A stretch of 64,000 nucleotides of DNA from an uncultured Pelagibacteraceae bacterium. GTDB lineage: Bacteria > Pseudomonadota > Alphaproteobacteria > Pelagibacterales > Pelagibacteraceae. How positions within the stretch are numbered: position 1 is the first letter of the stretch; each line of letters starts with the position of its first letter. A model generated the notes under the pieces. It did no database searches and was not told the origin of the DNA. It worked only from the letters and a program-made list of their open reading frames with translations. The position numbers and the translations under genes were made by a program. Location of the stretch: contig CACGDY010000001.1 in NCBI GenBank assembly GCA_902571915.1, positions 124,001 through 188,000 of the forward strand, in the 5' to 3' direction. Of this stretch, positions 25,588-36,922 are shown in pieces.

Positions 25588-27042
25588 TTATATTTTTTGA
25601 TCATATTCTCCGATTTTTCCAGTTTCTTGAAGAATATTATCTATAAATTTGAATATATTAATTTTTCTTTGTTCTGAAGTCGGGCTTTCAGTTACTATTA
25701 CCAAAGAGGGCTTATTGGATGAAGCTCTTATAAGTCCCCACGAACCGTCTTCAAAAGAAAATCTAATTCCATTTACAGTAACGATATTGTCAATTTCTTG
25801 ATTATCTATCTTTATTTTGTCCTCTTTAATCTTTGTAAATTTTTGAACTAGATCCTCTACAACTTCATATTTTTCATTATCTTTACAAAATGGTGCCATC
25901 GTTGGAGACTGAAATGTCGTGGGTAATTCTTTTAATATTTCACTCATTTTTTTGTTTTGATTATTTAATAGGTGACAGACTTGTATGGCAGAATTGATTC
26001 CATCATCGTAACCGTAGCCTAAAGGTTTATTGAAAAAGAAGTGTCCACTTTTTTCAAATCCTGCTAGTGCATTTTCATCAAATACTTTTCTTTTGATATG
26101 GGAATGACCTGTTTTCCAATATATAGTTTTACAATTATTTTTTAAAAGAACATCATCACTTGCATAGAGACCTGTCGATTTCACATCTACAACATATTTA
26201 GAGTTTTGGTGTTTTTTTGATAAATTTCTTGCAATTAATAAACCTATCTTATCCGAAAATATTTCGTTACCGGTATCATCTATCACACCTACTCTGTCTC
26301 CATCTCCATCAAAACCAAATCCAACATCTGCATTATTATTTTTTACTGATTTAGAAATTTCATGAAGCATTTTTAAATCTTCAGGATTCGGATTATATTT
26401 TGGAAATGTCCAATCTAAATTACAATCTAATTCAATTACCTCACACCCGATACCTCTTAAAATTTCAGGGGCAAAAATTCCTGCAGTACCGTTACCGCAC
26501 GCTACAACAGCTTTTATTTTCTTCGTAATTTTATTTTTATTTGTTAAATCTTCTTTGTAAATTTTATCGAAATTTTGAATTTTTTTTTCTTTTCCATTTC
26601 CAGTTATAAATTTTTTATTTAAAGTTATATTTTTAAGCTCTTGCATTTCTTCTGGGGCGTGTGTTAAACCTTTAATTATGCCCATCTTTACCCCAGTCCA
26701 TCCGTTCTCATTATGACTAGCTGTAACCATTGCAACAGCATCTGCATCTAATTTAAATTGAGCAAAATAAACCATTGGTGATAAAGCTAATCCAACATCT
26801 TCAACAAAACATCCTGTGGAAATCAAACCTGCTTTCAAAGCAATCTTAATTTCCTCACTATAAGACCTATAATCTTGACCAACTATCACTCTTGGGTTAT
26901 TTTTTTTAGTATGTTGTATAATTTGTGTACCGAGGCCTTTTCCAAGATCTATGATTCCCTCTTTATTGATATCTTTATTGTACAACCACCTTGCGTCATA
27001 TTCTCTAAACCCATATGGGTCTATTTTTAATGATTGATTCAT
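25588..27042 (-). CDS. Phosphomannomutase/phosphoglucomutase
   Basis: A 484-residue alpha-D-phosphohexomutase of the AlgC/ManB type. It has the phosphoserine loop TASHNENGW with S109, the magnesium loop GFDGDGDR near residues 243-250, the sugar-specificity loop GFEKSGHFFF (E-x-S-G-H), and a C-terminal phosphate-binding segment RASSNKPSLVIVTES. It interconverts hexose-1- and 6-phosphates, feeding nucleotide sugars for glycans and possibly the glucosylglycerate genes. The E-x-S-G-H loop fits PMM/PGM dual specificity rather than GlmM. Confidence 0.9.
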   Translation of the reverse strand: MNQSLKIDPYGFREYDARWLYNKDINKEGIIDLGKGLGTQIIQHTKKNNPRVIVGQDYRSYSEEIKIALKAGLISTGCFVEDVGLALSPMVYFAQFKLDADAVAMVTASHNENGWTGVKMGIIKGLTHAPEEMQELKNITLNKKFITGNGKEKKIQNFDKIYKEDLTNKNKITKKIKAVVACGNGTAGIFAPEILRGIGCEVIELDCNLDWTFPKYNPNPEDLKMLHEISKSVKNNNADVGFGFDGDGDRVGVIDDTGNEIFSDKIGLLIARNLSKKHQNSKYVVDVKSTGLYASDDVLLKNNCKTIYWKTGHSHIKRKVFDENALAGFEKSGHFFFNKPLGYGYDDGINSAIQVCHLLNNQNKKMSEILKELPTTFQSPTMAPFCKDNEKYEVVEDLVQKFTKIKEDKIKIDNQEIDNIVTVNGIRFSFEDGSWGLIRASSNKPSLVIVTESPTSEQRKINIFKFIDNILQETGKIGEYDQKI

Positions 27043-33724: not shown

Positions 33725-34408
33725 TTAAAGATATCTTAATATAATTTTTTCTATCCCAATGAAGTCTTTTATTAAGTGATTGTGATATATATCAGAAGTA
33801 TTTTTTTCTGTGTATCCATCCTCCAATAAAATAATTGGTATTCCTGCTTCTTTAGCCGCATTGGCATCTGTTTCACTATCTCCAATCATCAGACTTTTTT
33901 TTAAATCTCCATCTAGAATTTCAATAACTGAAGTTAAGTGTCTAGGATCAGGTTTACAATAATCAAAGGTGTTATGACCTGCAACATATTCAAAATAATC
34001 ATAAATTCCAATTTTCTTAAGTAGATCAACAGCTAAATGCTCTTGTTTATTTGTACAAACACCCATTGAAATGTCATTTTTTTTTGACCAATTTAAAAAA
34101 TCTTTGACACCATTTATTAGTGTACTTTCATTAACAATATTTTTTCCATAAAAATCAACAAAATCCTTTATCATCTCTTTTTTAATTTTTTCATCTTGAA
34201 CTTTTCCAAACTCTTTTTTTGCTTGTCCCCAGATGGATCTACCAAGCATTGCACCTGCACCTTGTCCTACTAAATTTCTAATTTCTTCTGTGGATTTTGT
34301 AGGATAACCAAACTTGTTCATTACATAGTTATGAGCTTTCATTAAATCTGGTGCAGTATCAACTAATGTGCCGTCTAGATCGAAAAGTATAGTAAATTTT
34401 TGTTTCAT
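33725..34408 (-). CDS. gph: HAD-family phosphatase, phosphoglycolate phosphatase-like
   Basis: A 227-residue HAD subfamily IA hydrolase. Motif I is LFDLDGTLVDTAPDL at about residues 8-22 (Asp nucleophile and acid), motif II is CTNK, motif III is a lysine in CKPDP, and motif IV is MIGDSETDANAAKEAGIP. The cap-domain start GQGAGAMLGRSI fits phosphoglycolate phosphatases, which remove 2-phosphoglycolate made in DNA repair or oxygenase reactions. Related sugar phosphates cannot be excluded. It diverges from the glmU-like gene with 71 bases between starts. Confidence 0.85.
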   Translation of the reverse strand: MKQKFTILFDLDGTLVDTAPDLMKAHNYVMNKFGYPTKSTEEIRNLVGQGAGAMLGRSIWGQAKKEFGKVQDEKIKKEMIKDFVDFYGKNIVNESTLINGVKDFLNWSKKNDISMGVCTNKQEHLAVDLLKKIGIYDYFEYVAGHNTFDYCKPDPRHLTSVIEILDGDLKKSLMIGDSETDANAAKEAGIPIILLEDGYTEKNTSDIYHNHLIKDFIGIEKIILRYL

Positions 34409-34479
34409 ATTTAAAAGTATTTTTAAGAAATATTTTGTGAATTAAGAAACATATATACTTAATATAAAGATTTTCAAAG

Positions 34480-35097
34480 ATGAAACATTTTAATTTACAA
34501 ATAACACAAAAAAAATTAAGAAATAAATTTTTAAAATCAGGTGTAAATATGATTGGTCCGGAAACAATTTTTTTTTCTAAGGACACAAAAATAGGAAAAA
34601 ATGTGACAATTGAACCTTATGTTGTGTTTGGGCCAAAAGTAAAAATTGGTAACAATGTTCATATAAAATCTTTTTCTCATCTTGAGAATTGCAAAGTTGA
34701 AAGAAAAGTCGATATAGGCCCTTACGCAAGAATTAGACCTGGCACCATTTTAAAAGAAGGATCTAAAATTGGAAATTTTGTAGAGATTAAAAAAAGTACT
34801 TTAGGTAAAAAATCTAAAGTAAATCACTTAACTTACATTGGAGATAGTTTAATTGGTCAATCAGTAAATGTAGGAGCAGGAACAATTACTTGCAATTACG
34901 ATGGTGTAAAAAAAAATAAAACAAAAATAAAAAATAATGTTTTTATTGGATCAAATACTTCTTTGGTTGCTCCAGTTACTGTCAATGAAGGTAGTTTTAT
35001 TGGGGCAGGCTCTGTAATTACCAAAAATGTAAAAAAAAGATCCTTAGCTTTAAGTAGAAGTTTACAAACAGAAATTAAGAATTATAAAAAAAAGTAA
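34480..35097 (+). CDS. glmU: Stand-alone GlmU acetyltransferase half
   Basis: A 205-residue left-handed beta-helix protein that matches only the C-terminal half of bifunctional GlmU, from the linker helix onward. Acetyltransferase residues are intact: RIRPGT (84-89), GNFVEIKK, the catalytic H116 and Y119 in NHLTYIGD, N139-Y140 in CNYDG, and S158 in [13 protein letters not shown]. It would acetylate glucosamine-1-phosphate. The N-terminal uridyltransferase (about 230 residues) is absent, and the divergent gph gene occupies the space where it would lie, so this is not a nearby frameshift. glmS follows after 4 bases. Confidence 0.88.
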
Positions 35098-35101
35098 AAT
35101 T

Positions 35102-36922
35102 ATGTGTGGAATTATTGGTATTAATAGCAACAGACCAGTATCTGTCTCAATTATAAACTCTTTAAAGAAATTAGAATATAGAGGCTATGACTCCGCGGGT
35201 ATTGCGACTTTATCTGATGGATTAATTAATGAAGTTAAATCAGAAGGAAGGGTAGATAATTTAGAAAAAAATTCATTAATTCAAAGCATGAATGGCACAA
35301 TTGGTATAGGGCATGTTAGATGGGCAACTCACGGAGCACCAAACAGTATTAATGCTCATCCTCATTCTTCTCAAAATGTATCAGTTGTTCATAATGGTAT
35401 AATTGAAAATTCTACATTACTCAAAAAATATTTGATAGGAAAAGGACACAAATTTAAATCTCAAACTGATACTGAAGTAATTGTTCATTTGATAACAGAA
35501 AATTTAAAAAATGAAAATATTGCAGAGTCTATAAAAAAAACTTTAAAAGCATTGCATGGTAGTTTTGCTCTAGGAATTATATTTAAAGATCAGCCAGACT
35601 TAATAATAGGAGCAAGAAGAGGCTCACCATTAGCCGTAGGCTATGGTCCAAATGAAAATTACTTAGGATCTGACTCATACGCTTTAAAATCTATGACTAA
35701 TAAAATAACATATTTAGGTGATGGTGAATTCTGCATTTTGAAAAAAGATTTTGTAGAATTTTTTGATGAAGAAGGAAATAAAATTAATAAAAAAGTTTTA
35801 GAACTTTCTTCAGATGAAAAAAAATATGACAAAGGTGATTACAAACACTTTATGGCAAAAGAAATTGAGGAACAACCATTAACTCTAAAAAATGGAATTA
35901 AAGAATATATTGACAGCAGAAATAATGATATAAATATTTATAATTTTCCGTGGAAAAAAAGTGAACTCTCTTCGATAACTTTAATTGGTTGCGGAACTGC
36001 TTATCATTCATGTTTAATGGCCAAATATTGGTTTGAAGAACTTACCTCACTAAATGTAAGTGTAGATATTGCATCAGAATTTAGATATAGAAAAAATAGA
36101 TTTAAAGATGATACTTTATATACTTTTGTTTCTCAATCAGGTGAAACAGCAGACACATACGCTGCTCTAGATATTTGCAAGAAAGCAAACATGAAAACCT
36201 GTGCTGTAGTAAATGTTATTGAAAGTTCAATTGCTAGAGACTCTGATTTTGTTTTACCAATCCATTGTGGACCCGAAGTAGGAGTAGCATCCACTAAAGC
36301 TTTTTTAGGACAAATTTTAATATTATATATGTTAGCTTTAAAAATTGGTTCAATAAGAGATGATATTAAAAAAAGTATATTTAATGAAAAACTTAAAAAT
36401 TTAATTGATTTGCCAAAATTAGCAGAAAAAACTTTAGCAACAGATAATAAGATACAATCAATATCAAGTATTTTTAATGATGTAAAAGGTTCAATGTTTC
36501 TGGGCAGAGGATACTCTTATCCGATAGCTTTAGAGGGAGCTTTAAAACTAAAGGAATTATCTTACGTTCATGCTGAAGGATATCCAGCTGGAGAAATGAA
36601 ACACGGACCATTAGCACTTATTGAAGAGGGTCTGCCAGTTGTAGTCTTAGCTCCAAGAGACAATTATTATAAAAAAACAATCTCAAATATGCAGGAGGTC
36701 ATAGCAAGAGGTGCAAAGGTTTTATTGATTACAAACAAAAGTAAGGATGAAGTACTTTCAGAAAATATCTGGGAGACAATTGAAGTTGAGACAACAAATG
36801 AAGATCTTTTGCCCTTTCTGTTAACGATACCTCTACAAAAATTAGCTTATTATTCTGCATTAAAAAAAGGTTTTGATATAGATAAGCCCAGAAATTTAGC
36901 GAAATCTGTAACCGTTGAATAA
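35102..36922 (+). CDS. glmS: Glutamine-fructose-6-phosphate aminotransferase
   Basis: A 606-residue two-domain enzyme of normal length. The N-terminal glutaminase begins MCGIIG with the catalytic C2 and has GHVRWATHG. Two SIS isomerase domains follow, with SQSGETADT near residue 345 and LGRGYSYPIALEGALKLKE near 465. It makes glucosamine-6-phosphate, the entry to peptidoglycan and LPS amino sugars, and is paired with the acetyltransferase two steps later in the same pathway (glmU-like gene upstream, 4-base gap). The glmM step is not in the window. Confidence 0.97.
   Translation: MCGIIGINSNRPVSVSIINSLKKLEYRGYDSAGIATLSDGLINEVKSEGRVDNLEKNSLIQSMNGTIGIGHVRWATHGAPNSINAHPHSSQNVSVVHNGIIENSTLLKKYLIGKGHKFKSQTDTEVIVHLITENLKNENIAESIKKTLKALHGSFALGIIFKDQPDLIIGARRGSPLAVGYGPNENYLGSDSYALKSMTNKITYLGDGEFCILKKDFVEFFDEEGNKINKKVLELSSDEKKYDKGDYKHFMAKEIEEQPLTLKNGIKEYIDSRNNDINIYNFPWKKSELSSITLIGCGTAYHSCLMAKYWFEELTSLNVSVDIASEFRYRKNRFKDDTLYTFVSQSGETADTYAALDICKKANMKTCAVVNVIESSIARDSDFVLPIHCGPEVGVASTKAFLGQILILYMLALKIGSIRDDIKKSIFNEKLKNLIDLPKLAEKTLATDNKIQSISSIFNDVKGSMFLGRGYSYPIALEGALKLKELSYVHAEGYPAGEMKHGPLALIEEGLPVVVLAPRDNYYKKTISNMQEVIARGAKVLLITNKSKDEVLSENIWETIEVETTNEDLLPFLLTIPLQKLAYYSALKKGFDIDKPRNLAKSVTVE

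Follow-up and report, generated by a model that had tools for sequence, protein, structure and literature searches.

How would a bacterium complete the synthesis of UDP-GlcNAc when its GlmU is reduced to the acetyltransferase half? UDP-GlcNAc is a universal cell-wall building block, needed for peptidoglycan and lipid A, and to our knowledge the bifunctional GlmU route to it is regarded as nearly universal among bacteria and as a drug target. The question is raised by a glmU gene in the window analysed here, a 64,000-nt stretch of DNA from an uncultured Pelagibacteraceae bacterium of the SAR11 group, whose members rank among the most abundant marine cells. The features of the locus are as follows.

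33725 to 34408, minus strand: divergent HAD phosphatase gene, 227 aa; best model phosphoglycolate phosphatase, below the cut-off of that model.
34409 to 34479, no strand: intergenic region from the divergent HAD gene to glmU, 71 nt; no N-domain seen.
34480 to 35097, plus strand: C-terminal half of glmU, 205 aa; linker helix and left-handed beta-helix acetyltransferase, without the uridylyltransferase domain.
34495 to 34536, plus strand: codons 6 to 19 of the truncated glmU; predicted N-terminal helix, aligned with the linker of full-length GlmU (shallow alignment).
35102 to 36922, plus strand: glmS, glutamine--fructose-6-phosphate transaminase, 606 aa; TIGR01135 739 bits, cut-off 418.

The glmU frame begins with ATG, and its 205-residue product scores 252 bits on the GlmU model TIGR01173, below the full-length cut-off of 366.85; the alignment covers profile positions 234 to 449 of 452 only. 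The best model is PRK14353, again GlmU (positions 241 to 435, E 4e-92), Pfam returns Hexapep at 104 bits, and no nucleotidyltransferase domain was detected by either PF00483 or PF12804, in agreement with a sequence-only reading of this DNA that had described a GlmU cut down to its acetyltransferase half. Twenty PDB sequences match the protein, 18 of GlmU and two of archaeal bifunctional relatives. Two GlmU constructs, 3twd and 4aa7, which we take to be the E. coli enzyme, match with E < 1e-49, and the segments PYARIRP, EIKK, HLTY, NVGAGT, CNYDG, IGSN, and LSR recur in them as near-identical blocks that presumably include the residues with catalytic roles. The SAR11 protein thus shares the acetyltransferase half and the conserved blocks with bifunctional GlmU (TIGR01173; E. 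coli 1hv9, Caulobacter CCNA_02389), whereas it lacks the N-terminal uridylyltransferase domain entirely; judged by this similarity, it probably still acetylates glucosamine-1-phosphate. An AlphaFold model built with 22 close sequences had a mean pLDDT of 74.5, and a fold search with it returned right-handed helices (e.g., pentapeptide repeats), with no GlmU among the matches listed. The modelled beta-helix was taken to be probably mis-handed; the N-terminal helix alone was used, and sequence similarity was left to decide.

The half gene is maintained by selection. Among 289 related loci in named genomes, the 80 best align without exception to residues 1 to 204 or 1 to 205, and every one is labelled Pelagibacteraceae or Pelagibacterales; over 21 of the related loci, pN was 0.07 to 0.12 and pS 0.54 to 0.68, with a mean pN/pS of 0.18. 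The frame is therefore no chance open reading frame, and the truncated glmU is under purifying selection, as expected from the earlier view of a working locus free of decay.

The gene order shows where the missing half was lost. glmS starts 4 nt downstream of the truncated glmU, and upstream no remnant of the N-terminal half is present, as had been noted, the 71-nt spacer being followed directly by the divergent HAD gene. The sequence-only reading also explained the lack of a remnant by this divergent gene taking up the space, which could not be upheld: because the gene is found at this position also where relatives encode a full-length GlmU, it is an old neighbour of glmU and no replacement of the N-terminal half. 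In 79 of the best 80 loci, HAD and truncated glmU could both be scored, and they are always divergent, 59 to 71 nt apart, with a glmU frame of 205 to 214 aa. Bifunctional glmU likewise adjoins glmS and the HAD gene, and the order HAD-glmU-glmS is the same in truncated and full-length loci (L198, L199, L232 to L239, and others); the N-terminal half was therefore excised in place. A glmU-glmS fusion suggested by an 821-aa reading frame in genome G085 was rejected, two separate frames being found there.

The divergent HAD protein scores 79 bits on the MupP model, less than its NCBIfam score for phosphoglycolate phosphatase. In Caulobacter, according to PMC13046382, CCNA_02390, numbered next to glmU (CCNA_02389), is listed as MupP; by analogy, this position would fit a role of the divergent HAD gene as MurNAc-6-phosphate phosphatase. 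A 484-aa phosphohexomutase of the PgmG/archaeal-GlmM type (280 bits, cut-off 439) is encoded at 25588 to 27042 on the minus strand of the window, 7.4 kb from glmU. In several other SAR11 genomes, a similar phosphohexomutase gene is separated from glmU by about 6 to 11 kb, whereas in G012 it is far away; a true GlmM is nevertheless present elsewhere.

The truncation is clade-wide and follows lineage, a pattern beyond the reach of the sequence-only reading of one window. In what follows, g1 to g13 (genera) and f1 and f2 (families) are codes of this analysis, and clade I comprises genera g1, g8, g9, g10, and g12, including the bacterium of this window. A GlmU match at E ≤ 1e-20 was obtained in 334 of 397 genomes sampled from the order, and 283 of these 334 have a C-half-sized match only; none of those with listed coordinates starts before profile position 192, and the rest were classed as truncated by best E-values between 1e-44 and 1e-76. 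They belong to genera g1, g6, g8, g9, g10, g11, and g12 of family f1. The full-length cut-off was passed by 49 genomes, 40 in f2 and nine in g5 and g7 of f1, and two further f2 genomes gave long partial matches. The other 63 of the 397, 14 of which are at least 90% complete, gave no match at this threshold, reflecting gene loss or assembly gaps. In a smaller genome set, 37 of 49 g1 genomes had the C-terminal half and 12 had no match. Two irregular cases were seen. The f2 genome G078 has a full-length glmU together with a second, C-half-only match in a 216-aa frame (contig C1, 1023 to 1598), either a paralogue or contamination; in G201 (L233) and G076 (L045), a full-length-type glmU is split into two frames by sequencing error or incipient loss, and amgK is also split in G201 (L185).

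The distribution suggests two or three losses of the N-terminal half. A tree was calculated from the HAD, GlmS, and AroG proteins of 26 genomes, AroG being our name for the class II DAHP synthase encoded near glmU-glmS in f1 loci. In this tree, g6 and g11 stand apart from clade I, g11 falls beside the full-length g5 (91/93), and three changes of state between truncated and full-length are needed. A single clade of all truncated rows was rejected (p-AU 0.0108), as were the groupings of g6 with clade I (p-AU 0.0198) and of g11 with clade I (p-AU 0.0268), while that of g6 with g11 was borderline (p-AU 0.0529); a 24-genome tree without g11 gave p 0.0164 for the single truncated clade. Support within the tree is moderate, and part of the deep branching is left unresolved; the fork joining g1 to the rest of clade I has support below 80 in the 26-genome tree and 89/100 in the 24-genome tree. 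The N-terminal half was thus probably lost more than once. One ancestral loss followed by regain is less likely: the full-length genes occupy the same position, and the C-terminal halves that they encode resemble those of the family. The g11 glmU locus was placed by prediction from the linked phosphohexomutase gene and proved to be truncated, at 195 aa. Within columns 221 to 260 of the GlmU alignment, the truncated proteins of g8 to g10 have a start in the linker that precedes the g1 start by about seven residues, and the g6 start differs again; such lineage-specific starts are in line with separate truncations or with later trimming.

From the gene content, the pathway around the half enzyme appears complete except for the uridylyl step, with the GlmS and GlmM supply present. 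GlmS, GlmM, GalU, and MurU are found in the truncated lineages examined, and GlmM exceeds its cut-off in 29 of 30 genomes, the exception being a partial gene in the incomplete (57%) genome of the window itself. Searches by known families (PF00483, PF12804, PF01704, TIGR01173) found no stand-alone GlmU N-terminal half in this 57%-complete genome; none was found either in eight single-contig truncated genomes (G012, G082, G083, G085, G086, G087, G088, G090), each of which has exactly one GlmU match at E ≤ 1e-20 among the four best candidates scored. With the four best candidates per genome scored in the 397-genome search, no match above the full-length GlmU cut-off occurred in the genomes counted as truncated. 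The sequence-only reading had offered either a separate uridyltransferase gene or another nucleotidyltransferase acting at the second step, and had called for a search for the stand-alone domain; the outcome of this search speaks against the former, at least as a GlmU-type N-terminal half, and leaves the latter standing.

The nucleotidyltransferases present were then compared. UDPGP (PF01704) exceeded its cut-off in none of 81 genomes, with two weak matches below it. Single-contig G086 and G090 have only three PF00483 matches each, of ManC, GalU, and MurU type by length; in G086, the GalU type is supported by a model match and the MurU type by its fetched locus. Richer genomes have more PF00483 matches, for example of 253 aa in G085 and 622 aa in G083. 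NTP_transf_3 proteins of 190 to 193 aa scored best on the N-terminal half in G012, G022, and G025 and were rejected as stand-alone N-terminal halves: the G025 protein (locus L070, 161 aa examined) is MocA-like, below the cut-off of that model, 8 of 11 f1 genomes have no such high-scoring match, and matches of similar length are also seen in genomes with full-length GlmU (G081 and G084, for example). Eukaryotic GNA1 and UAP1 likewise place acetylation and uridylylation on separate proteins, as proposed here for SAR11. In the GNA1 route, however, acetylation precedes the mutase and the enzyme folds differ from the bacterial ones; no UDPGP match exceeded its cut-off in the 81 genomes.

We propose that GlmS and GlmM would supply glucosamine-1-phosphate, that the GlmU truncated in place would acetylate it to GlcNAc-1-phosphate, and that another sugar-nucleotidyltransferase has probably taken over the uridylyltransferase step. 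In clade I, the most likely enzyme would be GalU, uridylating GlcNAc-1-phosphate as well as glucose-1-phosphate; drawn as it is from comparison of sequences, this reading has in our estimate about an even chance of being right. GalU would use GlcNAc-1-phosphate because four residues unchanged in the other family members are replaced in it, including a leucine-to-threonine change at the position of RmlA residue 89. All 35 clade-I copies (15/15, and 20/20 further g1 copies drawn from the matches listed) have S21, T109, W168, and H228, whereas K21, L109, Y168, and Q228 are kept in 12 of 12 other Pelagibacteraceae GalUs, of which eight belong to relatives with full-length GlmU, three to g6, and one to g11; four solved GalUs compared have them as well. 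The best model of the clade-I protein is still GalU (TIGR01099; 252 bits in the genome of the window and 244 bits in G086), and the cut-off of 326.8, which they do not reach, is also missed by the canonical SAR11 GalUs tested. galU is flanked by panC and ugd in all 26 genomes examined; GalU therefore presumably keeps making UDP-glucose, and for this reason dual specificity is proposed.

The strength of the GalU case appears to lie in where the changes fall. Mapped through the RmlA of the same genome, with an ungapped offset to 1iim, T109 corresponds to RmlA position 89, W168 to 146, and H228 to 199. The T109 column holds threonine in three aligned GlmU N-terminal halves (GTG motif), and S21 is aligned to a serine in them, near an alignment gap; W168 and H228 do not match GlmU residues, H228 being aligned to a tyrosine that presumably lines the GlcNAc pocket of GlmU. 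T109 is the sole one of the four substitutions backed by an engineered enzyme: according to a review (PMC9415975), L89T is among the mutations that raise the sugar-1-phosphate tolerance of RmlA. The engineered change sits in RmlA, whereas the change at the aligned position of clade-I GalU is natural and fixed. In the f2 family, which kept full-length GlmU, no GalU type was recognized by length and score among the PF00483 matches of 10 genomes; six f2 RmlA-like proteins matched RmlA rather than GalU, three of them checked by model match.

Fixed differences were counted on a common taxon subset, 7 versus 8 genomes (6 versus 7 for AmgK). GalU has 7 strictly fixed differences in 91 invariant columns, compared with 6 in 705 for MurU, AmgK, GlmS, AroG, HAD, and the C-terminal half of GlmU together (p 2e-4, post hoc, GalU having been chosen after its alignment was seen). 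Against single proteins the contrast is not significant, with p 0.21 for AroG (4 of 126, a column count that is understated because two AroG rows are partial genes) and p 0.26 for MurU (1 of 55). PanC (3 of 151 columns) and Ugd (1 of 176) were not part of the pooled test.

The weak point of the GalU reading is that g6 (three genomes) and g11 (one genome) are truncated yet have canonical GalU residues, the altered ones being absent from 4 of 4 of their GalUs; the clade-I changes may answer another need. In these two genera, an unchanged GalU or MurU would have to perform the uridylyl step, and an ancestral backup activity would explain the repeated loss of the N-terminal half. The fuller scenario, in which a dual-specificity clade-I GalU acquired through K21S, L109T, Y168W, and Q228H let GlmU shrink while the sister lineages lost the half independently on ancestral backup activity, is put forward more tentatively, its chance falling somewhat short of even.

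MurU, encoded in the tsaE-amgK-murU recycling cluster, is the serious rival: uridylating GlcNAc-1-phosphate as well, it would replace the lost domain in all truncated lineages with no need for a lineage-specific event, and one enzyme could do both jobs. It is a GlmU-like stand-alone uridylyltransferase, first found, according to PMC5371407, through identity with the GlmU transferase domain, and it occurs in all 36 genomes with the locus fetched (26/26 f1 and 10/10 f2). The absence of amgK beside murU in G085, G302, and G320 raised the idea that MurU had been freed from recycling there, which was refuted when AmgK was detected in all 31 genomes searched for it and AnmK in 34 of 35; the recycling route is therefore intact, and MurU keeps its own job. 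Its known substrate is MurNAc-1-phosphate, its gene usually accompanies amgK, and it has changed little on the clade-I branch, with one fixed difference there and none common to all truncated lineages; excerpts of PMC13041923 and PMC5371409 contained nothing on MurU with GlcNAc-1-phosphate. We regard replacement by MurU throughout as unlikely.

A dedicated GlcNAc-1-phosphate uridylyltransferase, either non-homologous or very divergent, would escape the family searches, which cover known families only; it could be among the unclassified PF00483 matches of richer genomes such as G085 and G083, and if ancestral it would make recurrent loss of the N-terminal half easy. Such matches are absent from G086 and G090, where the PF00483 complement (PF12804 left out) is accounted for by the three types named above, and we consider this enzyme rather improbable. 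ManC-like or RmlA-like proteins as the source of UDP-GlcNAc are very improbable: RmlA is promiscuous (PMC9415975) and ManC-length matches are common, but no RmlA-length match exists in G086 or G090 and no ManC-length match in G136, which is 95% complete. The truncated protein could also be a paralogue acting on a different substrate, with a full-length GlmU elsewhere; the low completeness of the genome of the window would allow this, and the two forms of G078 are a parallel. A second full-length glmU, named in the sequence-only reading as the finding that would overturn it, did not appear in the eight single-contig truncated genomes, whose one GlmU match each contradicts the paralogue, and the truncated gene occupies the ancestral position of glmU; the chance of this reading is close to negligible. 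Displacement of the uridylyl step, in clade I most likely to GalU, is the reading we retain.

Within the library searched, no paper listed for Pelagibacter/SAR11 GlmU, monofunctional GlmU, SAR11 peptidoglycan, MurU, GalU, or nucleotide sugars deals with a SAR11 GlmU, and a text search of a SAR11 O-chain paper (PMC11898729) for six terms gave no match. If SAR11 uses a half enzyme, a standard GlmU annotation in this group conceals the lack of one step. The recurrent loss of a single domain would amount to a natural experiment on how enzymes are displaced as genomes are streamlined, and the changes at four GalU positions would offer a directly testable route from a glucose enzyme to one for a bulkier N-acetyl sugar.

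Outside the tsaE-amgK-murU arrangement, murU lies beside the genes for ornithine carbamoyltransferase and acetylornithine transaminase in G085 (L163) and beside a dihydrolipoyl dehydrogenase gene in G320 (L175), and no amgK occurs within the stretch fetched around murU in G302 (L174); in all three genomes, amgK is located elsewhere.
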